DNA of 64,000 nt from Lachnospiraceae bacterium (GTDB taxonomy: Bacteria; Bacillota; Clostridia; Lachnospirales; Lachnospiraceae). Made by a program: the position numbers and the translations under genes. The notes beneath the pieces were generated by a model. That model did not search any database, had not been told where the DNA came from, and was given only the letters and a program-made list of their open reading frames with translations. Below, piece by piece: positions 16,845 to 29,481 of this stretch (the first letter of the stretch is position 1; each line of letters begins with the position of its first letter). Location: the NCBI GenBank assembly GCA_910575155.1, contig CAJTDX010000010.1:1-64000 (forward strand). Direction: 5' to 3'.

Positions 16845-17696
16845 TCAGGCTATTACCCCGGCAAGTCTCAGAATCAGATTGGTGGCCCTTACCACTTCCC
16901 TGGTAAATTCCAAATGTTTTCCTGCAATCTCCTGGTCAATACAATGTCTGACGCCATTTTTGATCCTTCCCATCTGGTCCGCCGCCTGAAGATGAGGATT
17001 ATAGGGCACGGCTCCAAGCCTTTCATATTCCACCCGGTAAAGCCGCTGGAGATTTTCACGGGTGTACAGAGCATCTTCAAAATATTTACCCAGAAGAAAA
17101 AATGTCTCTCCCGGATATTTGGGAGGATTTCGATAAAACGCCCCGATATGCTCCCTGTCCTGTCTCATATTCAGCACACAGATATCTGACTCCTTGAGGA
17201 TTTTCTGGGCATAATCATCCTGCCTGCTTCCGCAGTCGATAAATACAGCGTCAAAATAAGACTCGACCGCATCCATAACCCTGCCGATGCGCTGAAACAG
17301 ATTATCCTGATACCACCATTCCTGCTCTGATTTCATACTGGCCGGCAGACAATACATTCGGTCTCTGACAATCTGCCGCATATTTGCCTTTACGGTCAGT
17401 TCCGTCAGCTGTTCGCGGCATTCTTTGCGCAGCAGGCATTCCAATCCTCTGTTTACAAAAAATTCCTCTGTCTCTGCTGCAAGGACTGGATCTGTTCCAT
17501 AATCCTGATCTGACTTTTCCATCAGGGAATAAGAATTTGCAGTCTCAAAAAATTTCCTCTCCAAATTCTCGTCATGATATCCTCCCGAGACCACTGCCAC
17601 CGAAACAGGATGCAGCAATACCGCTGTACATGCGGTCACGGCAAGATTAAAGGTCGTTCCTTCTCCTGGCTGTTCACTCCAAAACGCTATTTTCAT
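16845..17696 (-). CDS. ParA/MinD-like P-loop protein with degenerate Walker A
   Basis: 283 residues. The N-terminus MKIAFWSEQPGEGTTFNLA has the shape of a MinD/ParA/CpaE deviant Walker A loop, but the conserved lysine before TT is replaced (GEGTT). A Walker B-like DAVFIDCGSRQDD is near residue 160. The family members are membrane- or DNA-associated ATPases that position pili, division or chromosome components. No partner (ParB, MinC, Tad pilus) is nearby, so its role is unknown. Start: GGAGAGGTATCA before ATG. It lies downstream of the disrupted amidase gene on the same strand. Confidence 0.6.
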   Translation of the reverse strand: MKIAFWSEQPGEGTTFNLAVTACTAVLLHPVSVAVVSGGYHDENLERKFFETANSYSLMEKSDQDYGTDPVLAAETEEFFVNRGLECLLRKECREQLTELTVKANMRQIVRDRMYCLPASMKSEQEWWYQDNLFQRIGRVMDAVESYFDAVFIDCGSRQDDYAQKILKESDICVLNMRQDREHIGAFYRNPPKYPGETFFLLGKYFEDALYTRENLQRLYRVEYERLGAVPYNPHLQAADQMGRIKNGVRHCIDQEIAGKHLEFTREVVRATNLILRLAGVIA

Positions 17697-17917: not shown

Positions 17918-18655
17918 TCAGGCTCTTACAACCAGGGTATCGTATCCATCCTGCCGAAGCTGGTCCTGAAGATTTTTTGCATCCTCCAGGGAATCCTCTC
18001 TTCCCACGATTACTGCGTAATAGGGATCATCTTTTTTCACAGCCACAAAAAATCCCTGGCTCTCTAACTGTTCCCGGAGATATTCCGCATTGGACTCATG
18101 ACGGAACAACCCCACCTGCACCCCGTACTGCTGCGCAGAATTGTCCAAAGGAACGGCCTGTTCCACTCCGGTTACGATAGCATCCACCATTTCATCAAAG
18201 CGCTGGTCAAACATCTGGTTATCCATATCATTATTAATAAACCCAAGTTCCATCAGTACCGCAGGCATCTGCGTTCGCCTGAGCACCACAAGCCCCGGAC
18301 GCTCTACCACTCCTAAATCCTTGAACCCAAAATCCACCAGTTCCTGATTAATTATCTCTCCGATCCGTTCCGCTTCTGTATCCGCCGCATACACCAGCGC
18401 CTGTGTTCCATTATAAGTATTGGGATTGGTTCCTGAATTTCTGTGGAAAGAAATAAAATAGTCCGCGCCGGAACGATTTGCAATCTGCACCTTCTCAAAG
18501 GGAGAATCATAGCGGTCTGTGGTTCTTGTATAAAGCACGTTATAGCCGGCATCTTTTAGCTTCTGCCCCACTGCGAGGGCCACGCGAAGCGTATCATCCT
18601 TCTCTTTCCTGCCCTGAAAAGAAGCTCCGTTGTCATAACCGCCGTGTGCCGGATG
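17918..18655 (-). pseudogene. 3' part of a disrupted N-acetylmuramoyl-L-alanine amidase gene (Amidase_3 + SPOR)
   Basis: The open frame begins right after a TAA at 18658-18656 with no start codon of its own in the conserved region. It reads HPAHGGYDNGASFQGRK and then continues as a normal Amidase_3 domain (ISFHRNSG, AVLMELGFINN) to about two thirds of its length, then a C-terminal SPOR-like domain (about the last 75 residues). HGGYDNGA is the family's first metal-binding region, normally preceded by a strand ending DAG or DPG. That missing piece, with start codon and RBS, is at 27217-27273. The gene has therefore been split by the element at 18642-27243. Rejoined, it would encode 252 residues. 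A GTG at 18583 could give a product lacking the first zinc ligand. Confidence 0.88.
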
Positions 18656-18660
18656 TTATA
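18638..18660 (-). other. Left attachment junction of the integrated element
   Basis: On the minus strand the element-side sequence ATAACATCCGGCA runs into CACGG (18646-18642) and then the amidase codons GGT TAT GAC AAC. The same CACGG occurs at the other junction. The exact crossover dinucleotide cannot be fixed by eye. Confidence 0.65.
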
Positions 18661-18689
18661 TGCGCAAATAATTTCCTTATACGATTTCG

Positions 18690-20300
18690 TTAAACCACTT
18701 TACTTTCCTGATATACATTAGAAAACAAATGTTCCAATTCATTTCCAAAATTGTATCTGATTTTAATTTTGTGATTCTCATACACAACAATCTGGTCTAT
18801 CATCTCCACAATCATATCTCTGTCCAGTTTTTCAATGTCTCTCATTTCCAGCAGCCTTTTCAGCCACGGCGTCTGAAATACATCCTCCGTAACGCTTTCT
18901 TTCATTTTTTCTTCCAATGTTTCTGTCTGTTTTTTATAAAGCTCTTCTTTTTTCAGGTAATCTTCGCGGTAAGTAAAAAATTCTTCTTTTGAAATCATCC
19001 CCTCTTTATAATCTTCATAGACTGATTTCTTTAATTTCAGCACCCGCTCTAATTCAGCTTTTACCCTGACAAGTTCTTTCCTGGCGATTTCCTCTGCTTT
19101 GGGATAATGAAAAGACTGATTCTCCATAAGCCTTTGTATATCATTAACGTTCTGAATGATTGTTCTTAAATCATTCAGTATAATCTCATCCAGCACATGG
19201 AATGGCAATGTATGCGGCGTACAGTACCCTTTTCCATGACGTTTATATGTCCCACAGTAAAAAGAATATGCTTTACTCCCATCTGCGCGTTTCCAAAAAT
19301 TCTTCATCATAGCCCTGCCACAATCTGCGCATACGATAAATCCGGCAAAAATGTTCTTATTTTCTTCCAGCCCCATATCCCTATGACGTTTTGACAAAAG
19401 CTTCTGTGTCTTTTCCCATGTCTCCAGGTCAATGATGGGTTCATGGGTGCCTTTGACCACAATCCAGTTCTCTTTGTCCACCCGTTTCTGTCTGCTTCTC
19501 ATCCGCTGATGTTTTTTGCCCTGCACCATATTTCCTCGGTACATCTCATTCTTCAGCATGACGTTTATGGTGGAATAGGTCCAGTAAGAAGTGCTTTCCA
19601 GGCGGTTGCAGTTCTTGTAATTTAAACCATTTGCCATTTTATACTCAGATGGGCAGAGGATTCCTTCTGCATTTAAAAGCTTTGCAATACTCAGTTTTCC
19701 CATTCCCCCCACATATAAGCGGAATACCTTCCTTACCACCTCAGCGGCGTATTCGTCAATGATAAGTTTATTCTTGTCTGCAGGCGATTTCTTATAACCG
19801 TAACTGGTGAAAGAACCGATAAACTCTCCCGCTTTCTGCTTTGATTTTACCGTCACCTGGATTTTTTTTGAAATATCCCTGGCATACTGTTCATTGAAAA
19901 TATTTTTAATGGGCAGAAGCATGTCATACGTCTGCCGGATGCTGTCAATCCCGTCTGACACAGAGATAAATCGCACCCCTAATTCCGGGAATACCCGCTC
20001 CAGATAACGCCCTGTGTCGATATAATCACGGCCAAACCTGGATAAGTCCTTTACAACGACGCAGTTCACCTTCCCTTCTTCGATATCTGCAATCATTCTC
20101 TTAAAACTGGGACGGTGAAAGCTGGTGCCTGTATACCCGTCGTCCACATAGACGTCATAGATGATAAGGTTTTCCATTTTTGAAACATATTCTGTCAAAA
20201 GCTTCCTCTGGTTCCCTACGCTGTCACTTTCTTCTTTGTCGCCGTCCTCCCTTGATAACCTGATATAAACAGCCGTGTAAAATAATTCTGATTTTTTCAT
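18690..20300 (-). CDS. Large serine recombinase (site-specific integrase)
   Basis: 536 residues. The resolvase N-terminal catalytic domain (about 8-155) has the nucleophile serine in YIRLSRED and the DLSRFGRDYIDTG motif. The recombinase domain (about 180-290) follows, then a zinc ribbon (CADCGRAMMKN to FYCGTYKRHGKGYC, about 325-370) and a coiled-coil region (about 400-470). This is the TnpX/TndX/phage-integrase type that inserts and excises circular DNA at attB/attP. Start ATG with AGGTGAGGAA upstream. Its stop lies 44 bp from the junction with the amidase fragment, so it very likely catalysed this insertion. Confidence 0.95.
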   Translation of the reverse strand: MKKSELFYTAVYIRLSREDGDKEESDSVGNQRKLLTEYVSKMENLIIYDVYVDDGYTGTSFHRPSFKRMIADIEEGKVNCVVVKDLSRFGRDYIDTGRYLERVFPELGVRFISVSDGIDSIRQTYDMLLPIKNIFNEQYARDISKKIQVTVKSKQKAGEFIGSFTSYGYKKSPADKNKLIIDEYAAEVVRKVFRLYVGGMGKLSIAKLLNAEGILCPSEYKMANGLNYKNCNRLESTSYWTYSTINVMLKNEMYRGNMVQGKKHQRMRSRQKRVDKENWIVVKGTHEPIIDLETWEKTQKLLSKRHRDMGLEENKNIFAGFIVCADCGRAMMKNFWKRADGSKAYSFYCGTYKRHGKGYCTPHTLPFHVLDEIILNDLRTIIQNVNDIQRLMENQSFHYPKAEEIARKELVRVKAELERVLKLKKSVYEDYKEGMISKEEFFTYREDYLKKEELYKKQTETLEEKMKESVTEDVFQTPWLKRLLEMRDIEKLDRDMIVEMIDQIVVYENHKIKIRYNFGNELEHLFSNVYQESKVV

Positions 20301-20377
20301 TTCCTCACCTATGCGGCTGCTGTACCTGTAAACAGCATCATACCATGTTTTGTTTTCGGTTCATTTCTGCGTTTGCC

Positions 20378-20512
20378 TCACTTTGTCATATCTTCTTTTG
20401 TAATGTCCTGGTTCAGATGGGCTTTCACAATGCGGATCAGCAATTCTTCTACGGAAACTTTTTCCAAATATTCCCTTTCCACTGTATATTGGACTGGTTT
20501 TTTCTCTTTCAA
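20378..20512 (-). CDS. Small protein preceding the serine recombinase
   Basis: 44 residues starting with TTG at 20512, preceded by AGGAGG at nine to ten bases. The frame stays open further upstream, but that part runs into the MITE-like repeat. The product (KPVQYTVEREYLEKVS, then a helical VEELLIRIVKAHLN stretch) is short and charged. Similar small ORFs are commonly found directly upstream of large serine recombinases in clostridial elements. The function is unknown; a regulatory or directionality role would be a guess. It is transcribed toward the recombinase, 77 bp away. Confidence 0.6.
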   Translation of the reverse strand: MKEKKPVQYTVEREYLEKVSVEELLIRIVKAHLNQDITKEDMTK

Positions 20513-20532
20513 ATCCTTCTGTCCTCCTGTTA

Positions 20533-20692
20533 GAGTGTGTTTGAAAAATGCTTTCTGACAGATGTATTCTCCACTTAGCGGCAGATTGATACCAAATGAA
20601 GGGCGCATAGCGGTCTACGCAACCTGAATTTAGTGCAAATATTGCGCTAAGTTGGGGATACAGATGGCGAAAATGATTTTTCAAACAAGCTC
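20533..20692. repeat. MITE-like element with imperfect terminal inverted repeats
   Basis: The left end (20533 onward) begins GAGTGTGTTTGAAAAATG. The reverse complement of the right end (20692 backward) begins GAGCTTGTTTGAAAAATC. After these the two arms stay similar for about 30 more bases, ending in CACTTAGCG and AACTTAGCG. At 160 bp with no ORF it resembles a non-autonomous miniature transposon. No clear target duplication is visible. A 16-base match to one end (GTGTTTGAAAAATGCT) occurs at 6932-6947. Confidence 0.65.
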
Positions 20693-20912
20693 AAAATCAC
20701 TGTTTTTTCAACATATGCATATAGGCTTTTCCGATATGTATTGTCTGCCGATATTTCACCGCCAAGACACGATGCTGATCCGCCGTCCATTTTATTTTTT
20801 GTTCCTGATGAATGGAACTATTTTTTTTTGATAGAATAATCGCAGCCCTGCCTGATATTGCAAAGCATTTTAGCCGTTGGAGCAATAAGTGTCAGCCGGA
20901 AGCAAAGCACAA

Positions 20913-20958
20913 ATAAAAACGCCTGACAATTTCATCAATCGTCTGACGTTTTTATTTA
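20913..20958. terminator. Strong hairpin terminator after the kinase operon
   Basis: AAATAAAAACG on the left pairs with CGTTTTTATTT on the right and GTC/GAC pairs extend the stem. On the minus strand it ends in TTTTTATTTG. It lies about 80 bp after the kinase stop codon and would end the leftward transcript; it is symmetrical enough to work both ways. Confidence 0.8.
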
Positions 20959-21023
20959 CACATTTCATTTGAGAATGCTTTTTGTATATACTTATCACGA
21001 AGTAAAATCCTTCTCTCCCCCAA
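20952..21023 (-). CDS. Possible 23-residue peptide ORF coupled to the kinase gene
   Basis: A TTG codon at 21023 is preceded by AGGAGG that overlaps the stop codon of the kinase gene, so translational coupling is possible. The 23-residue product is basic and ends FSNEMCK, and its last codons overlap the terminator stem. No known peptide-pheromone motif was recognised. It is offered because two-component systems of this type often pair with a short peptide; it could be chance. Confidence 0.2.
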   Translation of the reverse strand: MGERRILLRDKYIQKAFSNEMCK

Positions 21024-21036
21024 AAAATCTTCCCTC

Positions 21037-22326
21037 CTAATTAAGAAATAACTCGACAATAAATCGTTTGCCTTCTTGTTTTAATTTTATGTTTCCATCA
21101 TACTTCTCTATACTACTCAACACATTCAAAATCCCAATCCCCCTGCCTTTTCCCTTTTGGGAAACCGGATAACTATTTTTCCACTTTACTTCATCACAGC
21201 TATTTTCCATTTTTACCACAATCATCTGATGATAAGAAGTGATTTTTATAAACACATATTTATCATCGTCCACTTTTTCTGCTGCTTCAATTGCATTATC
21301 TAACAGATTGCCAAAAATCGTAGTAATATCTATTGGCGCGATAAAATCTAAATTTACATTATCTGTTTTAATATCAAATAAAATATTCTTGTCTTTCATA
21401 AATACTTGTTTATCCGTTAAAAGAATATCCAATATAGGATTTCCTGTATATTCAACTGGTATAAGGGGCTTTAACATGTCTCCAATCTCATTTGTATATT
21501 CCTTCGCTTTCTGCCTCTGTTCCGTCATAAACAAATCCTCTATTGCTTTCATATGTTTTTTTACATCATGTAAAATTTGAACCGTTTTTTCATATTTTCT
21601 AGTCTGTTGTAAATAATACTCGTATTGTATATTCGCCTGTTGTTCCAAGGCTTTCACCTGATTTTCATAATAATTTTTTTCATCAGCCACTTTAACATAA
21701 TACAATAGGTACAAATCGGCTAATACAATACATCCCATATTTACTGCGCATAAATAACTTTCTTGCCCCTGCACAAAATATTCAACTATAATTACCATGT
21801 TGACTAGGCTATATACTAACATAATAATATAAATAACATATTGTGTATTTGAAGGAGAAGAATATTTACGTTTCATTAGTCTGTTTATAAACATATAATA
21901 TAAAAAAATAAGTATAATCTTTGAAAATGTAACTTCGAGGCAATGTAACATCACTGTATTTGTAATTTTTATATTCAATAATTGCAGCATCCATTGTAAT
22001 AAAATTACACCCAACGATTCACAGACACACATACAAAGCGCTAATGCTTCACATTCAAGTACACGCTTCAAGGTTCTGTCAACATATTCAAAATAAAGGA
22101 AAAACGCCGACAAACCAACTGCAATACACCATGCCGCCAAATTTAAGACAGAATTATTTAATAAATTTACAAATACAATAGATAATATTACAATCATTTT
22201 AGCAAAAAAATAAACATACTTCTTCTGACGGCTTTTCTCATATCTGCCATTCATAAACTGAAACAGAATTTCAGTTATAATAAAACATGAAAAACCGCTG
22301 CACATAATCAATAAAATTCTATCCAT
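21037..22326 (-). CDS. GHKL sensor histidine kinase (AgrC/LytTR-system type)
   Basis: 429 residues. Six or so hydrophobic segments fill the first about 200 residues, followed by a coiled linker, an HDVKKHMKAIEDL phosphoacceptor box (H near 250), NLLDNAIEAAE (N box) and GRGIGILNV (G box). This is the peptide-sensing AgrC-like group. The start chosen is the ATG with TAGGAGAGCAGAG upstream, ten bases after the regulator's stop; a longer frame starting at 22362 would overlap the regulator. It is cotranscribed with the LytTR regulator. No AgrB-type peptidase is encoded in the element. Confidence 0.88.
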   Translation of the reverse strand: MDRILLIMCSGFSCFIITEILFQFMNGRYEKSRQKKYVYFFAKMIVILSIVFVNLLNNSVLNLAAWCIAVGLSAFFLYFEYVDRTLKRVLECEALALCMCVCESLGVILLQWMLQLLNIKITNTVMLHCLEVTFSKIILIFLYYMFINRLMKRKYSSPSNTQYVIYIIMLVYSLVNMVIIVEYFVQGQESYLCAVNMGCIVLADLYLLYYVKVADEKNYYENQVKALEQQANIQYEYYLQQTRKYEKTVQILHDVKKHMKAIEDLFMTEQRQKAKEYTNEIGDMLKPLIPVEYTGNPILDILLTDKQVFMKDKNILFDIKTDNVNLDFIAPIDITTIFGNLLDNAIEAAEKVDDDKYVFIKITSYHQMIVVKMENSCDEVKWKNSYPVSQKGKGRGIGILNVLSSIEKYDGNIKLKQEGKRFIVELFLN

Positions 22327-22336
22327 CTCTGCTCTC

Positions 22337-23071
22337 CTAGGAATTTCGTTGCAAAAATTCATTCATTTGTACTCTAAATTCTACAACCCTTTTTTGTGCA
22401 ATCGCCAGCTCCTTTCCATTATCCAAATAAAGTATATATCCTTTAATTTTTTGAACATGCACCAAATTTACTAAATTTCCTCGACAATTTACCACAAAAT
22501 CATATGGCTTTAACTCTTCAGTCAGCCTCTCAAATACACATTCACATTCATATATTTCATCTAATAATACAATAGACGCTCTCCGCTGCCTTTTTATATA
22601 TTCAAAATATAAAATATCTTTCAGATTAAATCTCATCGTGGAATATTCTTTGTTCCGGCTGTCTGTCACTTTATAAAATTCTTTTTCTACAACAGAATCA
22701 GAAAAATTATCCAATAATTCTTTTATTTGTACCTGCAGCTTATGTCCGTCCAAAGGTTTACATAAAAAAGAAAAAGCATGGACTTCATTAATTGCCTGCA
22801 TACAATACTCTTCAAAACCAGTTGTATATATCAATTTTACATTTGGAAACTTCTCCCTGATTTTCCTCCCCACTTCAATCCCATTATATTCTTTCATTGC
22901 AATATCCAAAATTCCTATATCTATTTTCTGAACAGCATCTAACATTTCACCAGCTGATAAATAAACCCTTATATTAAACAAAATACTTTTGTTTTCAAAA
23001 ATGTTGTTTAATAGATCTGTTACATGATTCAAGTCCTCTATATTATCATCACAGACAACAATCTCTATCAT
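22337..23071 (-). CDS. LytTR family response regulator
   Basis: 244 residues. The N-terminal receiver domain has VCDDN at the start, the phosphoacceptor Asp in GILDIAMKEYNG (about residue 57) and a lysine in FLCKPLD. The C-terminal LytTR DNA-binding domain (about 140-240) contains the ILYFEYIKRQRR and FVVNCRGNLVNL regions. AgrA/VirR-like regulators bind paired direct repeats of about 9-11 bp one or two helical turns apart; such repeats occur at 24940-24970. RBS AAAGGGGATG before ATG. It is followed by its kinase. Confidence 0.92.
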   Translation of the reverse strand: MIEIVVCDDNIEDLNHVTDLLNNIFENKSILFNIRVYLSAGEMLDAVQKIDIGILDIAMKEYNGIEVGRKIREKFPNVKLIYTTGFEEYCMQAINEVHAFSFLCKPLDGHKLQVQIKELLDNFSDSVVEKEFYKVTDSRNKEYSTMRFNLKDILYFEYIKRQRRASIVLLDEIYECECVFERLTEELKPYDFVVNCRGNLVNLVHVQKIKGYILYLDNGKELAIAQKRVVEFRVQMNEFLQRNS

Positions 23072-23233
23072 AAAATTTCATCCCCTTTTCATTTTTCAAG
23101 TTTATCATTAAAATTTATTACAAATCAATAAAAAAGACTGCCAAAATCAAGATTACAAGCATACAAAACTGCAACACAACATAGTCCTTCTGACCATTTC
23201 AAATATATAGAACATAAGATGCTATTCATAAAT

Positions 23234-24664
23234 TTATCTGATTGGTTTCATATTTTTATAATATCCGACACTGTTTACCCATTCCATACTAACAATTGGA
23301 TCAATAATACTTAATTCTGAATCAGAGACCTGATACTTAATACTAAAATTCATAATGTTTTCAACTCCATATTTATTTTCATAGTCCCTAAGCATATAAA
23401 TTTCATCCCTTAACTCCTCATACCTGGCATTTGCCTCCTGAGAATTGAGCAATTGGCACATTTTATCTGGCAATCCTCCAATTTTGCCATTTTTATCTAT
23501 AGTAATATCTTTATATGAATATTCTCCGTTTGTCGCACTCTGAAGAAATTTGTTTAGTTCATGATATCCATTTAATAACCTATATTGTTCCTTAGAAATG
23601 TCTGTTGCCTGTATATGCTTATTCCATAAATCTTCGGCAAAATTTTCAGATAATATTTTTTCCAATTTTTCCCTATCTTCTTCCTCCATATCCCCTTTCA
23701 CAGATATATTTCCTTCCACATTCATTTCAATTTCCCATAATCCAGCAGGCACCTTCATACCATTCTTCTCTGCTGTTTCCCTTATTCTCTGATAAAATTC
23801 ACTATGAATATAGTTGCTGGCTTCCGCCTTTTCATAATCAGCCAGGTTAGCAAATATTTTTACATATGCCATCTCTTTTTGATCCAACTGCTCACCATTT
23901 TTCATTCTGCATAATAATTCTTGAACCGTAGCGGTTCCTGAATATTTTTGGCTCTCTGGTAACGCTTCAAACTGAATTTTATGCAATCTATCAAGCTGTT
24001 CTTTGTAAAATCCTTCATATTCCTTTCTTACTTCGTCCCGATTTTCCGTATTGCCAGCATTTTTCATTTCCCAAGCATGCTGTACACTATTACTTTGGTC
24101 GTCTTTGCTTTTTATTTCCTCTATTCTTATACGATAAGCACTTTCCTCCAAATTTGGTGCATGATCTGTACTTTCTACTTTAATAATATATTGTGATGTA
24201 ACACAGTCCCAATCTGGTAATGTAAGTTTCTTATTACCATTTCCATCATCTTCTGCCATTCCAATCTGATTTCCATAAGAATCATACACTATCAGATTAC
24301 AATTACTATTTGGACATTCTAACATAATAGTTATTTCTGAAGAAATTCCCATCTTAGAATATAATTTTTTTTCCTGATAAGAAAAAGAATAATAATCCAC
24401 ATCCTGACTGGAATCTATGGCTCCTTCCAGATAACTTTCTTCATTATGAATTAAGCTTACTAAATCATATGTACTAAAGTAACAATCCAATCTGTCATTA
24501 TACTTTGTATGCTGACGGTAACTGTCATTATGGTTTTCCTTTCCTTCCTCAGTCAATACCGTCTTTTGGTATAATTCTTTCATTGGTGAAGAAAAACAGT
24601 TTTCGACATTATACTTCTTTCCATCTACTAATGTACCTCCAATAGTTTGAATATAATTAATCAT
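23234..24664 (-). CDS. Uncharacterised protein with a PPC-like beta domain
   Basis: 476 residues, no match recognised for the whole protein. Residues about 80-185 look like a bacterial pre-peptidase C-terminal (PPC) beta-sandwich (DSSQDVDYYSFSYQEK, then CNLIVYDSYGN and YIIKVES). The rest is charged and helical, with a DxNG-type turn near 400. There is no signal peptide or transmembrane segment, although PPC domains are usually extracellular. Start: AGGAGGTAATAAAA before ATG. A LytTR-type promoter lies about 250 bases upstream, and the regulator-kinase pair follows 162 bp downstream without an obvious terminator. It is thus probably the main output of that system. Role unknown. Confidence 0.75.
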   Translation of the reverse strand: MINYIQTIGGTLVDGKKYNVENCFSSPMKELYQKTVLTEEGKENHNDSYRQHTKYNDRLDCYFSTYDLVSLIHNEESYLEGAIDSSQDVDYYSFSYQEKKLYSKMGISSEITIMLECPNSNCNLIVYDSYGNQIGMAEDDGNGNKKLTLPDWDCVTSQYIIKVESTDHAPNLEESAYRIRIEEIKSKDDQSNSVQHAWEMKNAGNTENRDEVRKEYEGFYKEQLDRLHKIQFEALPESQKYSGTATVQELLCRMKNGEQLDQKEMAYVKIFANLADYEKAEASNYIHSEFYQRIRETAEKNGMKVPAGLWEIEMNVEGNISVKGDMEEEDREKLEKILSENFAEDLWNKHIQATDISKEQYRLLNGYHELNKFLQSATNGEYSYKDITIDKNGKIGGLPDKMCQLLNSQEANARYEELRDEIYMLRDYENKYGVENIMNFSIKYQVSDSELSIIDPIVSMEWVNSVGYYKNMKPIR

Positions 24665-24756
24665 TTTTATTACCTCCTAACTTCTTGTCTAAAATTAAGG
24701 GAACTAAAATAATTTTAATGCCCTCCGTGACCAAATCTGATTTTTTAAAAATATGA

Positions 24757-24864
24757 TTAATCAGCTATTATTCCGAACAGTGCTAAATAATTAATCGTCA
24801 TATTTGTCATTGTAGCGCAGCTATCATTTATATAAGCAAGGCCACTCACATTCCTAGCATACAA
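24757..24864 (-). CDS. Possible 35-residue peptide ORF in the leader of the PPC-like gene
   Basis: The leader downstream of the LytTR-type promoter contains an open frame with TTG or GTG starts whose product is Asn/Ser/Thr/Cys-containing and ends with a hydrophobic NYLALFGIIAD. The ribosome binding site is poor (TAGGA only two bases from the GTG). A frame of this length can occur by chance, so this is only a candidate signal or effector peptide. Confidence 0.2.
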   Translation of the reverse strand: MYARNVSGLAYINDSCATMTNMTINYLALFGIIAD

Positions 24865-24916
24865 AGCATAATTTTATAATTTACAACTGCGATGTAGCAA
24901 TATTTTCTTCGGATAG

Positions 24917-24970
24917 ATTGTATCATTTTTTAGCAATATTTCACGAAGTAGCCCTTTTTTTCACGAAGTA
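24917..24970 (-). promoter_or_regulatory. LytTR-type direct repeats and promoter
   Basis: On the minus strand TACTTCGTGAA occurs twice (24970-24960 and 24950-24940), 20 bases start to start, followed by a -10 box TACAAT (24922-24917). The position 17 bases upstream of the -10 has no -35 consensus and overlaps the second repeat. This is the typical layout of promoters activated by AgrA/VirR-like regulators. One more single copy of the core (TACTTCGTGA) is at 21003-20994. Confidence 0.7.
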
Positions 24971-25384
24971 AAAATGATCATTAAACACTATACATTGCGC
25001 CTATTTATATTTTTCGTATCTGTATATACATATCTAACACTTTTTAGGATTTTTTATCAAGGATGGGCTATCCATGGTAAATTACACCACAAAAGAAAAA
25101 CTGGGAACAATCACCCGCTTATCAATAATGTTCCTTCTGTCATCTATCTGTTTCTCTGATATTTTTCTCTCTTTTACTGCTTTTTGCAGCTCTAAAAACG
25201 GTCATTGATATGGCTTCTATTGTTATCACATTCAATTTTCATCTCTCATAGCTCTTTCCTTTGTTTTCCCCGTCTTTCCCCCAATCCCAAGCCTGACACA
25301 TAAGCAGTCGTTTTGTATAACAACGGTTAGGCTTTGGCAGTAACAACTTTTCTCACTTCTTTCCCTGCCCTTGAATGGTTATTC
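24971..25384. other. Gene-poor AT-rich stretch in the element
   Basis: No ORF with a ribosome binding site or recognisable product is visible. There is an imperfect inverted repeat around 25288-25335 (AAGCCT/AGGCTT arms with an inner CGTT/AACG pair). It could be a decayed region or hold an origin or transfer site, but nothing specific was recognised. Confidence 0.5.
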
Positions 25385-25609
25385 TTACATAATTTCTTGA
25401 AGATCCGGGCATAAAAACAGCCAGATGATTCCGCTTTTAGAAAACCATCTGGCTGTGTATTGCCGTACATTGTGTCCTATTTCATTTAAAATTTTATTTT
25501 TTAATTTTTGCTGATGCATCACAAAGCAGGAACTGTACTCTATCCCACCATGGCCGATTAACTTTTCGTCTGTATATGAAAAGCCTGACGCCTCTAATAT
25601 CTGTGTCCG
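25385..25609 (-). pseudogene. Possible gene remnant without a start codon
   Basis: A 74-codon open frame on the minus strand has protein-like composition (FSYTDEKLIGHGGIEYSS) but no ATG near its start and no RBS. An intrinsic terminator hairpin lies within its 3' part. It may be the decayed C-terminal end of a former gene. No family was recognised. Confidence 0.3.
25412..25457 (-). terminator. Intrinsic terminator
   Basis: On the minus strand CAGCCAGATG and CATCTGGCTG form a 10-bp stem followed by TTTTTATG. It would end leftward transcripts coming from the Rpn and ABM-like genes. Confidence 0.75.
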
Positions 25610-25726
25610 TTATGTTGCTGCAACGGGTGGCAGATTTTTCACAATGGAAAAGAGCAAACACTGGCTTAATTACCTGCCCTGCTAATACCCATAGATCCAG
25701 TATTCAATTGCAAGATACCAATGTCA

Positions 25727-26074
25727 TCAAAACAAATTTTCCCCTAAATATTTATCATGTGGAACGATCAGACATTTTTCGATAAGCTTCCAATAGCTAT
25801 CGTAAAGATTTTTCTGTGCTGCTCCATAGCTTTCTTTCGTATCAAATTCCCAATAAAGCATGTACTTCACACTTTTTACAATACGGGTGATTTTAAGCGG
25901 GGGAAGTCCTTCTTTAATCTGCTCCATGTCTATGCGATATCCCCTTTTAATAAGCCGAAGCGAACGCAGCCCCTCTTGCTTTTCCAAAAAGCTTTTCGCT
26001 TCACGCATGAGTGTTTCAAATTCCTCTGCCTTTTGGGGCTTGACCTGATAAATACATATTTCAGTAAATGGCAT
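25727..26074 (-). CDS. ABM-superfamily (antibiotic biosynthesis monooxygenase-like) small protein
   Basis: 115 residues. It opens with FTEICIYQVKPQKAEEFE, the strand-helix pattern of the dimeric alpha-beta barrel (ABM/EthD-like) fold, and has a second similar segment ending near residue 80. Such proteins act as heme degraders, monooxygenases or stress proteins; the specific function is not evident. The start is the ATG at 26074 with AAGGAGGATTGGAAT upstream. The frame stays open 43 codons further upstream, but those lack a start signal. It follows the Rpn gene on the same strand. Confidence 0.65.
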   Translation of the reverse strand: MPFTEICIYQVKPQKAEEFETLMREAKSFLEKQEGLRSLRLIKRGYRIDMEQIKEGLPPLKITRIVKSVKYMLYWEFDTKESYGAAQKNLYDSYWKLIEKCLIVPHDKYLGENLF

Positions 26075-26226
26075 ATTCCAATCCTCCTTGTATTGTAAAA
26101 CTATTGATGCCTTCAGACACGCCGAATGGCTTGATAGAACACCCTTGGGTACACAAAAAGAGCCATCACTGACCCGCCTAAATATCTCAACTTTATTCCA
26201 CATATTGCTCTTTTTCTCAATATTTA

Positions 26227-27030
26227 CTAAAATCTTTTGGATAAAACAGCCCTATCCTCATCTGGGATTTTTAAAATAGACATTGCCTGCTCTGCTGTCA
26301 TCTTCATAGCTTCCATGAGATTTTTAATATGCTCAAAGGAGTTATCAATTCTTTCTCTGTTAATTCTTTCCTCCATTACCTTACTCATTTGACTTCGGCC
26401 TCCTTCCGTTTCTTTGAAATGCCTTACCGACTTTGCAAGTTCCTGATAAAACATATCGACTGCACTTGTACAGCGGAAATCATGCATCAGTTTCCCTACG
26501 GGGTCACTATCATTTTTATAGCTGCCATTCACATAAATAATATGCGCGCCATCCCCAAATAACGCCCCTGATTCCTGTACCGTCCTCTCCACATGGTATA
26601 GCGGCAATCCCATTTTCATATAGTCATTCTTTGTAATGAATATTACATAGGATTCATGAAGTTCTTTGAATTTCTGCTTTTCTTTCAGCATCTTCGTATC
26701 TAACATACTGCTGTGAAACCTGGCTCTGCGCACGTCCGCCCCGGCATTCTCATTCTGTACCTCAATATCATACACTTTTCCGTCAGAACCCCTGGCATAA
26801 ATGTCGAGTTTAATAGAACGGCCTCCCGTGACCGGATTCTTATATTCCCTCTGCGCCACCACTTCCGTGACTTCCATATCGTTCCTGCCAAGAATAATGT
26901 TTAAGAGAAGCTCTGTTGCCTCTGTGTTCCTGTCAAACACGATTGTCATAAACTCATCATCCAGAAGGGTAAATCCTTCCAACAGCTCTAAATTTTCTTC
27001 CTCATCATTCAGCTTTACTGCATCGCTCAA
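26227..27030 (-). CDS. Rpn family recombination-promoting nuclease / putative transposase
   Basis: 267 residues. The PD-(D/E)XK nuclease core is visible: the opening DDEFMTIVFDRN, the acidic IKLDIYARGSDG and the DIEVQNE motif near residue 93 (D...ExQ). The family (PDDEXK_2, formerly Transposase_31) promotes RecA-independent recombination in E. coli and is common on mobile DNA. The C-terminal about 60 residues are helical and charged, as usual. Start ATG preceded by AAAGAGGGTGG. It is the last gene at the right end of the element, 190 bp from the junction. Confidence 0.88.
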   Translation of the reverse strand: MSDAVKLNDEEENLELLEGFTLLDDEFMTIVFDRNTEATELLLNIILGRNDMEVTEVVAQREYKNPVTGGRSIKLDIYARGSDGKVYDIEVQNENAGADVRRARFHSSMLDTKMLKEKQKFKELHESYVIFITKNDYMKMGLPLYHVERTVQESGALFGDGAHIIYVNGSYKNDSDPVGKLMHDFRCTSAVDMFYQELAKSVRHFKETEGGRSQMSKVMEERINRERIDNSFEHIKNLMEAMKMTAEQAMSILKIPDEDRAVLSKRF

Positions 27031-27216
27031 ACAACCACCCTCTTTCTTGTTATCGGCTTATCCATATTATAACCTCTGCAACAGCTTTCAGCAACACTAA
27101 TTCCAATAAGGCTTGTCCTCTCTTACATATTTGTTACTGTTCGCTCCATTCAGTCACACATGTTTCATTTGATACAAGTACAGCAGCTCACTTTCTTCGT
27201 ATATTTTATTATTTTT

Positions 27217-27273
27217 TTACCTGCGCAACTGACGTCCCCCGTGCCCGGCGTCTAATATAATTGTTGCAGCCAT
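27217..27273 (-). pseudogene. 5' part of the disrupted N-acetylmuramoyl-L-alanine amidase gene
   Basis: An ATG at 27273 with GGAGGAG four bases upstream starts a frame reading MAATIILDAGHGG, the classic start of an Amidase_3 domain (DAGHGG with the first zinc His). It then runs into element DNA and stops five codons later (RQLRR, TAA). The remainder of the gene is at 17918-18646, on the same strand and in matching frame. Confidence 0.88.
27232..27250 (-). other. Right attachment junction of the integrated element
   Basis: On the minus strand the amidase codons GAC GCC GGG run into CACGG (27243-27239) and then element DNA (GGGACGTCAG). CACGG is shared with the left junction and marks the region of strand exchange. 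Confidence 0.65.
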
Positions 27274-27453
27274 AGCTCCTCCATATTTTTTCTTTTATAC
27301 TATGCAGGGGAAATAAAATCGTTCATATGCAGGTACTTTTTTCATTTTTATAAATAACCAACAAAAAAATTAAATAAAAAGTCAAATTTTTTATTGTATT
27401 GAACAAAAAATAGAGCTATAATAAAACGATAAAGATACTCAGGGAGGAACATT

Positions 27454-29481
27454 ATGAAATTACAAAAAAAACGAACTAATTCCAAAAAGGGAATTGCTGA
27501 CGAAATTCTTAAACACATTGGCGGAAGTGTCATTTTGGTATTTCTGCTTATCGCAGCCGTGGCAATCTGCATGGTAGGATGGCTCAGCATTACTTCCAAA
27601 AAAACGGAACTGATTCAGGAGTCAAACGCGGCCGCAAACCAGCTGACCGGATTTTTGGAACAATACACAAAAAATGCGGAACAGCTCGCCGCCAATCCAG
27701 AGATTCAGGAAGTCATGATGGACACAAAGGACGGGGACGATATCGCAAAGGCGCAGAAAATGGAAACTGTGATGAATAACCTCGTCAATATCGCCTCTAC
27801 CGATACTGAAAACGTCATGGCTGTCTGGATTTCCGACCTGGACGCCAGCGCGCTCATACAGTCGGACGGCTTTGCCAGTGAAGAAGGCTGGGATATCACA
27901 GGGCGCGGATGGTACGGCTGTATCGAGACAAAGAAACCTATACTTACCGAACCATATGTTGACTCTTCCACTGGAAAAATGATTTTAAGCGCCGCCGCTC
28001 CGGTCTTTGACTCCGACGGCACGGTTCTTGGAGCAGTGGGCATGGATATTGCCCTGGATCATATGACAGATCTCATGAGCGAATATAAGATCGGCCGCAA
28101 AGGATACATCATATTATTATCAGAAAACGGCACCTTCCTCTATCACCCGCAGAACGAGATTATTCAGAAAACCCTTTCAGATGTAAACATATCCCAGAAT
28201 GTCAGCGATACTGTTTCCTCAAAAAGCAATAAATTTTTAAAATATAAGGCCCAGGGACAGACAAAATACGGCTCTCTGCAGCATGCCGGAGACACCGGAT
28301 ACATCGTACTCAGCAGTCTGCCTGTGTCTGAATATTATGAGATCCTGTTTGTCATGGTTCTCTCGCTCATTGTACTCTTTGCAATCGGCATCATCCTGAT
28401 TACATTCAGTATCAAGAAAAGCGCCGCAAACCTGACAAAGCCGATACTGGAACTGAATCAGACAGCCCAGCAGCTCGCAGCAGGCGATCTGGACGTCAGC
28501 CTTTCTATCACCAGCCAGAATGAAATCGGCGAGCTTGGCGCATCCATCCAAAAAACCGTCAACCGTCTGAAAGAATATATCGTATACATTGATGAAACAG
28601 CAGAAACTCTGGCACAAATTGCTGAAGGAAAACTCAGCATTCATCTGAAAAACGACTACGTCGGTGAATTTCAGAAAATCAAAACTGCCCTGCTCAATAT
28701 TTCCGACTCTATGAACCAGGTTATGATGGGAATCAATGAAAGTTCAGAACATGTATCCGTTGGAGCCTCAGAACTTGCGTCTGCTTCCCAGGTTCTTGCA
28801 GAGGGCGCTGAAGAGCAGGCCGCCTCCATTGAGCAGCTTACAGCAACCACCAATACCGTTGCGGAGCAGGTGGAAAATAACCGCCGGGATGCCGAAGCTT
28901 CTGCAAAGGCTACCGCACAGGCTACCATGATGATTGAAGAAAACCAGGAAAACATGAAGCTGATGATGGATGCCATGAATAACATCCACCAGACTTCCCA
29001 GCAGGTTGTCGGCATTATCCAGACCATCGAAGAAATTGCATCGCAGACAAACCTCTTATCGCTAAATGCTTCCATAGAAGCCGCCCGCGCAGGCGAAGCC
29101 GGAAGAGGATTTGCTGTTGTGGCTGATGAAATTGGAAAGCTGGCGCTGGAAAGTTCCCAGGCAGCGAACACCACAAAAGAGCTGATTGAAGTCTCAATGG
29201 AAGAAATCCGCAAAGGAAGCAGCATTGCCGCACACGCCATGGACTCGCTCAAAGAATCTGTAAACGCCGTAGACCATGTAAACGAAATGATTCAGGAAAC
29301 ATCAGAAAATGTAGCTATTCAGGCTGAAAACATGAATCAGCTTCGTATAGGAATTGAAGAAATTGCACACGGAATACAGGATAACTCCGCCGCTTCACAG
29401 GAAACTTCTGCCACTTCAGAAGAACTGGCGTCTCAGGCAGAACTGTTAAACAGAATGGTACAAAAATTTGATCTGATTTAG
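27454..29481 (+). CDS. Methyl-accepting chemotaxis protein (Cache sensor)
   Basis: 675 residues. A membrane segment (about 27-50) is followed by an extracellular dCache-type sensor (about 55-300; DITGRGWYG and [12 protein letters not shown] are typical Cache strands). A second transmembrane helix (about 300-325), a HAMP domain (about 328-385) and a long MCP signalling domain follow, with the conserved hairpin tip ([20 protein letters not shown]) near 520. It senses an extracellular small molecule and signals to CheA/CheW, which are not in this window. Start: GGGAGGAACATT before ATG. Monocistronic. Confidence 0.96.

Follow-up and report, generated by a model that had tools for sequence, protein, structure and literature searches.

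Large serine recombinase elements in a CwlC-like amidase gene and two further peptidoglycan genes of Lachnospiraceae: probable skin-like elements of sporulation genes

Introduction

Why should a cell-wall amidase gene be interrupted within a codon of its catalytic motif by an element that encodes a large serine recombinase (LSR), and could the gene be made whole again? The question is raised by the stretch of DNA analysed here (the window), 64,000 nucleotides of contig CAJTDX010000010.1 from a gut bacterium of the Lachnospiraceae (assembly GCA_910575155.1; its genome is G000 below). An earlier note on this DNA, made from the sequence alone, had proposed that such an element splits an amidase gene in its DAGHGG motif, that excision could restore the gene as with the sigK skin element or the comK prophage, and that the element would be a reversible switch of a peptidoglycan hydrolase. 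We consider it probable that the element belongs to a group of skin-like mobile elements which lie in mother-cell sporulation genes (cwlC-like, cwlD and pdaB) and are excised in the terminal mother cell.

Results

The window element interrupts an Amidase_3+SPOR gene (cwlC below) at the CA of the catalytic histidine (His) codon of DAGHGG. The 5′ fragment (27235..27273, minus strand) has a ribosome-binding site (RBS), GGAGGAGCT, and an ATG at 27273; it reads MAATIILDAGHGG, in the same context as in intact relatives, and after CA passes into element bases. The 3′ fragment (17918..18646, minus strand) begins HGGYDNGASFQGRK and is open from 18646 to 17918, its 221-aa part from 18583 matching Amidase_3 (E 2.4e-31) and SPOR (E 3.5e-14) in Pfam. 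Joining the halves gives a single open reading frame (ORF) of 252 aa, with CACGG common to both; the in-frame join that had been proposed through CACGG thus stands, with the crossover now best placed on CA. From CA to CA the intervening element measures 8,597 bp (18647..27243, minus strand), and its LSR (536 aa; 18690..20300, minus strand; Pfam Resolvase, Recombinase and Zn_ribbon_recom) stops 43 bases before the His codon, near the junction as the earlier note had it.

A search over 61 genomes, 29 of them of the same genus including the window's own, found an ortholog in 27 of the 29; of the other two, G010 has just a piece of it at a contig end and G008 has none. When the frames were read, 21 of the 27 were continuous through D-x-GHGG, as the earlier note had expected of related genomes, and six (G000, G003, G015, G019, G021 and G027) were split at the same codon, with element sequence preceding CAYGGCGG; this shows that the split is not due to chance. 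The predicted gene order was also borne out: an ATPase-like gene (16845..17696, minus strand; the earlier note's label, the gene having no Pfam match) lies directly downstream of the amidase in the window and in four of five intact loci, the contig of the fifth ending first. Where both halves are known, the cwlC elements measure 4.2 kb (G003), 8.6 kb (window), 11.2 kb (G021) and 17.4 kb (G027), and their content varies. Among 88 Amidase_3 genes in 16 same-genus genomes, whose split status was judged by where the profile match begins, five are split, all of them cwlC or cwlD (both in G000, the others in G003, G010 and G015), and cwlC and cwlD are likewise the only split ones among the seven amidase genes of G000.

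In all 18 element/gene pairs with both halves at hand, joining at CA gives an open full-length frame of 179-295 aa (a script threshold of 180 aa tallies 16, the other two being 179-aa amidases without SPOR), a test with some bias, as the search for 5′ halves used an in-frame D-x-GH motif. The element arms form a dyad around CA, with a mean identity of 0.65 at offset 0 compared with at most 0.34 at 12 other offsets, several of the arms being near-copies. The attL codon of G010 reads CAG, its third base thus being supplied by the element. This, with the dyad centre, best places the crossover on the CA of the His codon, which in the window is 27242..27243 at attL and 18645..18646 at attR (both minus strand; assigned from the dyad centre and the attL/attR comparison). 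CA is part of every His codon, and this His is presumably a zinc ligand. An H49A variant of CwlD is named in PMC8496864.

The interrupted gene looks like a CwlC-like sporulation amidase, judging from its promoter pattern, its neighbourhood and its Amidase_3+SPOR architecture, which we take to resemble that of CwlC. By eye, a signal peptide was not apparent in the intact protein. Its best match in the PDB is 4rn7 (E 3.7e-14), and 1x60, a 'sporulation-specific N-acetylmuramoyl-L-alanine amidase', matches the SPOR part (E 8.1e-6). A sigmaK-type promoter pattern, AC-N16-CATAGTATA, lies upstream of the ATG (27296..27322, minus strand), and of 25 cwlC upstream regions, which are related and not independent, 24 have AC-N15..17-CATAnnnTA no more than 120 bases from the ATG (G013 is without it; G019 and G015, whose 5′ half is missing from the sequence at hand, are not among the 25); 200 dinucleotide shuffles gave 0.07 on average and at most 1. 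Ahead of cwlD an exact sigmaE-type pattern was found in 6 of 28 upstream regions, a weak signal, and a CATA-type -10 in most, by eye only. According to PMC3789822, sigmaK promoters have AC and sigmaE promoters ATA at -35, with similar -10 boxes; C. difficile cwlD is under sigmaE, and B. subtilis mother-cell lysis involves the sigmaK-controlled CwlC and CwlH. PMC517825 gives a similar account of cwlC and cwlH and has ybaN bound by SpoIIID, ybaN being equated with pdaB here from the name of TIGR02764. The genome encodes both sigmaK (303.4 bits, cut-off 298.65) and SpoIIID (129.2 bits, cut-off 111.5).

A second LSR of this clade, 96% identical to the first, is found on contig C19 of the same genome, followed by an amidase 3′ fragment that starts at HGG and is a CwlD match (TIGR02883, 202.7 bits from profile position 9, the cut-off being 221.55 and the fragment lacking its start); the 5′ half of cwlD is on another contig (C16:80074-80217). 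The DNA flanking both cwlD junctions matches the ends of the window element, with 91% and 94% identity over 1.0 and 1.9 kb. In the genus, cwlD is split in five of 25 genomes (G000, G010, G019, G020 and G021), and also in G027, so that G000, G019, G021 and G027 have both cwlC and cwlD split. It is a matter of speculation that the ends shared by the two elements of G000 could permit cross-recombination, giving chimeric amidases or rearrangements. G000 alone has 38 matches to the LSR and is thus rich in recombinases.

These observations were extended by scanning public genomes with six peptides from the window LSR as seeds; the best 80 of 118 loci (best segments 53-98% identical) were classed by comparison with cwlC, cwlD and pdaB reference fragments. 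Split amidase genes stand beside the LSR in 55 of the 80, and 53 could be classed by best reference, 23 as cwlC-like and 30 as cwlD-like. The residues ahead of HGG are not D-x-G in any of these 53 3′ fragments, so none of them belongs to a continuous gene. When the fragments were scanned singly, TIGR02883 matched 28 of the 30 cwlD-like and none of the 23 cwlC-like ones at E <= 1e-35, although this model is imperfectly specific and the cwlD fragments fall below its own cut-off where shown; SPOR is carried by 17 of the 23 cwlC-like fragments. In locus L081 an amidase 5′ half ending DAGHGGTQLRK lies beside the LSR, and in L061 a cwlD 5′ half lies upstream of it. In 21 of the 80 loci the neighbour is a pdaB fragment broken in the SFDAAWGN motif (the one that was scored, in L112, gave 206.6 bits with TIGR02764, cut-off 237.4), and four loci (L093, L116, L133 and L135) have no target assignment, three of them with less than 700 bases of contig past the LSR. 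The LSR tree (built by a quick method; 82 rows, 7 of them unlabelled, without G015) requires 24 changes between cwlC, cwlD and pdaB, compared with a shuffled mean of 35.1, and its starred branches alone force 12 for cwlD, 11 for cwlC and 5 for pdaB. Two identical LSRs of a single genome lie one in cwlD (L087) and one in cwlC (L089).

These elements apparently form a mobile, non-phage family. No phage-related genes were seen among the Pfam matches of six window-element proteins and five ORFs of small elements. The best-ranked phage relative of the LSR shows 37.0% identity, with none of the 727 phage records reaching 60%; the best-ranked plasmid relative shows 35.5%, again with every plasmid match below 60%; and one viral contig with a 50% LSR match has no match to cwlC, cwlD or pdaB in the 11.5 kb examined. 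A phage origin is not supported.

Complete amidase elements range from 2.8 to 17.4 kb (n=12). The four smallest (L070, L073, L074 and L101; 2.76-3.25 kb) contain little besides the LSR, a small ORF and a ParE-type toxin gene, to which L070, L073 and, by its likeness to L073, L074 add an antitoxin gene; in the next-smallest, L107 and L108, no ParE-type toxin gene was seen. It is possible that the toxin-antitoxin pair of the smallest elements guards against loss from the germ line. Directly after the LSR, and ahead of the amidase junction where that is seen, a gene of about 178 aa (MKIVMDENGHKIVVIPDIIFKNRQNIDW...) is found in L088, L089, L091, L093, L094, L103, L105, L106, L117, L126, L130 and other loci; its 53 N-terminal residues have no Pfam match. 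In L048 (3947-4729), from G019, an unrelated N-terminal ORF, sigma-factor-like by eye, continues in frame into the C-terminus of an LSR.

Upstream of the window LSR lies a small ORF of 44 aa that starts with TTG and contains YTVEREYL (20378..20512, minus strand). A YTVERE-like frame occupies this position in 63 of the 80 loci (5 loci have less than 300 bases upstream) and gave no Pfam or NCBIfam match in the three cases tried; its position makes it a candidate recombination directionality factor (RDF). In the C. difficile skin element this factor is CD1234, of 72 aa, and inverted repeats are mentioned for the promoter of the C. difficile LSR (PMC5025042). The window operon itself is preceded by a conserved promoter- or operator-like dyad, ACATAT...ATATGT around GGAAAAGCC (20711..20739, minus strand). 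Across the family such dyads surround G(G/A)A(T/C/A)AAGC with arms that vary between groups yet stay complementary. Of 54 sequences, in which two loci are represented twice, 31 have perfect arms of at least 6, as against a mean of 0.8 and at most 4 with shuffled flanks. The dyad may bear some resemblance to sigmaE and SpoIIID sites, a weak lead. That the dyad might be absent from the window's LSR operon was considered and rejected, since it is present, with a 160-bp repeat insertion (20533..20692, minus strand) lying between it and the small ORF. This repeat, which resembles a miniature inverted-repeat transposable element and has terminal inverted repeats by eye, lies in the operon leader between the dyad and the RBS of the small ORF; it is not in the genome's second copy, the cwlD element, and has further matches on contigs C6, C10 and C2 (37 bp).

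The remaining genes of the window element, all on the minus strand, are cargo: a GHKL-type sensor histidine kinase (21037..22362) and a LytTR response regulator (22337..23071), both assigned by Pfam; a protein of 476 aa with no Pfam match (23234..24664); and a PD-(D/E)XK nuclease family transposase (26227..27030), also found at the 5′ end of this genome's cwlD element. Directly outside attL is a gene for a Cache-domain methyl-accepting chemotaxis protein (MCP; window 27454-29481); in G003 and G021 close relatives of it (87-88% identical) are part of the cwlC element, and the cwlD element of G019 contains one that looks similar by eye. That G000 (outside the element), G003 and G021 (inside it) all have an MCP gene at this locus may point to an early insertion in their clade.

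Discussion

Our findings that one codon is split in six genomes, that the halves join in frame and that the targets look like mother-cell sporulation genes suggest how these elements may act. Integration and restorability follow from the sequence, and the earlier claim that excision could restore the amidase holds in this sense; excision timed to sporulation would be the most likely mechanism. During sporulation the element would be cut out of the mother-cell DNA by the LSR, assisted by a directionality factor that the small ORF may encode; the restored gene would then be expressed in that cell, in the case of cwlC from its sigmaK-type promoter, while the germ-line copy in the forespore would keep the element. 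Since the targets look like mother-cell sporulation genes, excision would be one-way and in a dying cell, with the germ line keeping the element, and 'reversible switch' is probably the wrong word. We also propose, tentatively and as something close to evenly balanced, that this is a selfish family with sporulation as its niche: it would occupy invariant catalytic-motif codons (the His codon of CwlC and CwlD, the SFDAAWGN motif of PdaB), hop between three genes and between bacterial families, restore these genes by excising solely in mother cells, which are doomed, and punish germ-line loss through the toxin-antitoxin genes of its smallest members. If this is true, one recombinase would rebuild several sporulation genes of one cell, possibly in trans.

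The main competitor, which we regard as unlikely though deserving of weight, is a plain mobile element whose LSR recognises the DNA of DxGHGG (or of the pdaB motif), a dispensable sporulation enzyme being lost without any regulated excision. Its mobility is certainly high, near-identical LSRs being found across Thomasclavelia, Blautia (a metagenome-assembled genome), Hominisplanchenecus and an Erysipelotrichaceae genome, and the cwlC element of G021 and the cwlD element of G019 have no LSR of their own; G021 has one in its cwlD element, and in G019, 82% complete, none matched at E <= 1e-120. Simple loss fits poorly, however, with 3′ fragments that remain open over at least 165 aa in 52 of 53 cases, with the sigmaK-type pattern kept in all four split cwlC upstream regions examined, or with the genus's other Amidase_3 genes, which do not look split; it would also leave G000, G019, G021 and G027 with neither cwlC nor cwlD. 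The ratio of non-synonymous to synonymous substitution (dN/dS) argues in the same direction, with a median of 0.036 and a range of 0.022-0.045 for the split cwlC 3′ fragments (12 of 15 pairs with finite dS, its values of 0.95-3.0 being near saturation) and 0.060 for continuous cwlC (109 of 210 pairs). The protein tree unites G000, G003, G019 and G021 in one supported clade (96/94), puts G027 beside an intact gene (94/93) and leaves G015 unplaced; because element contents differ at the one site and G027 and G015 fall outside the four-gene clade, the constraint may partly predate insertion.

This last point and the elements without an LSR weigh against the skin-like reading, and so do several others. 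The target restriction could reflect the attB sequence alone, and the control, six of 36 other LSR matches of the window's own genome with no such gene beside them (0/6), spans only about 1.5 kb on each side. Decayed or out-of-frame 5′ halves would have been missed by the motif search; the 3′ fragment of L097, which lies close to the end of its contig, is interrupted at 87 aa. Orthology with CwlC is argued from architecture, promoter and neighbourhood; among the CwlD matches L066 scores weakly (73.5 bits), and an unsplit amidase on contig C25 of G000 also matches the CwlD model weakly (135.9 bits). The window copy carries the 160-bp repeat in its LSR operon leader. Finally, neither the joined site nor the circle junction has a match in the genome's own assembly, though growing cells would not be expected to show the excised form.

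That same absence of a joined or circular form speaks against the vegetative switch of the comK-prophage type put forward in the earlier note, in which excision and reintegration would toggle the amidase in growing cells. In its favour, a directionality factor allows LSR systems to work in both directions; cwlD and pdaB are sporulation families, though, cwlC has its sigmaK-type pattern, and nothing was found for such a switch, which we judge very improbable. The comparison with sigK skin, in contrast, is supported, because the target gene looks sporulation-specific. That the halves are unrelated fragments or an artefact of assembly was rejected, and has a negligible likelihood given the 21 continuous orthologs, the same split in six genomes, the two-sided att dyad and the gene order of intact loci.

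The skin-like elements proposed here would work like sigK skin or gin of gerE, with a different recombinase clade, host group and set of targets; the features of those systems found here are a split sporulation coding sequence, an encoded serine recombinase, and a short core with in-frame restoration. sigK skin (spoIVCA in B. subtilis; CD1231 with the RDF CD1234 in C. difficile; PMC5025042) is alike in being an LSR element in a mother-cell sporulation gene; its precise restoration and small RDF gene would have their counterparts here in the in-frame join and the candidate small ORF. The elements described here differ from it in that their targets are peptidoglycan enzymes, that they measure 2.8-17.4 kb with no phage genes among the ORFs looked at, and that their LSRs change between three targets; their excision is proposed from the sequence. 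In B. cereus ATCC10987 gin likewise is a non-prophage intervening element with a serine recombinase in a mother-cell sporulation gene (PMC5595907), but at 28.6 kb and with three recombinases, whereas the elements read here are smaller, have one LSR and occupy other targets in other hosts. SP-beta in spsM (PMC4191935) and yin in yabG (PMC10747680) also interrupt sporulation genes; unlike the elements here, they are prophages or prophage-like, with one target each. The LSR architecture is shared with the transposon recombinases of the TndX/TnpX type (Tn5397, Tn4451), for which the core dinucleotide is GA, in contrast to the CA core and gene-specific sites found here; the window LSR is 34.7% identical to TndX-annotated records. 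No report of split cwlC, cwlD or pdaB was found in titles and abstract openings, most subscription papers being beyond reach, and in the part available of an LSR survey (PMC10083194) the word 'amidase' is absent from the main text.

Programmed excision during sporulation is known from single cases: sigK, gerE, spsM and yabG. In the present case a single recombinase clade appears to have turned it into a recurring strategy among Lachnospiraceae and some other Bacillota. Three peptidoglycan genes are hit repeatedly, and in one genus at least four genomes have two of them split. Many natural pairs of LSR and attachment site are supplied along with their likely core. Three questions become testable: how mobile DNA is drawn into a developmental programme, whether several split genes are served by a single recombinase, and whether the seemingly 'broken' cwlC, cwlD and pdaB genes of spore-forming gut bacteria are in fact functional.

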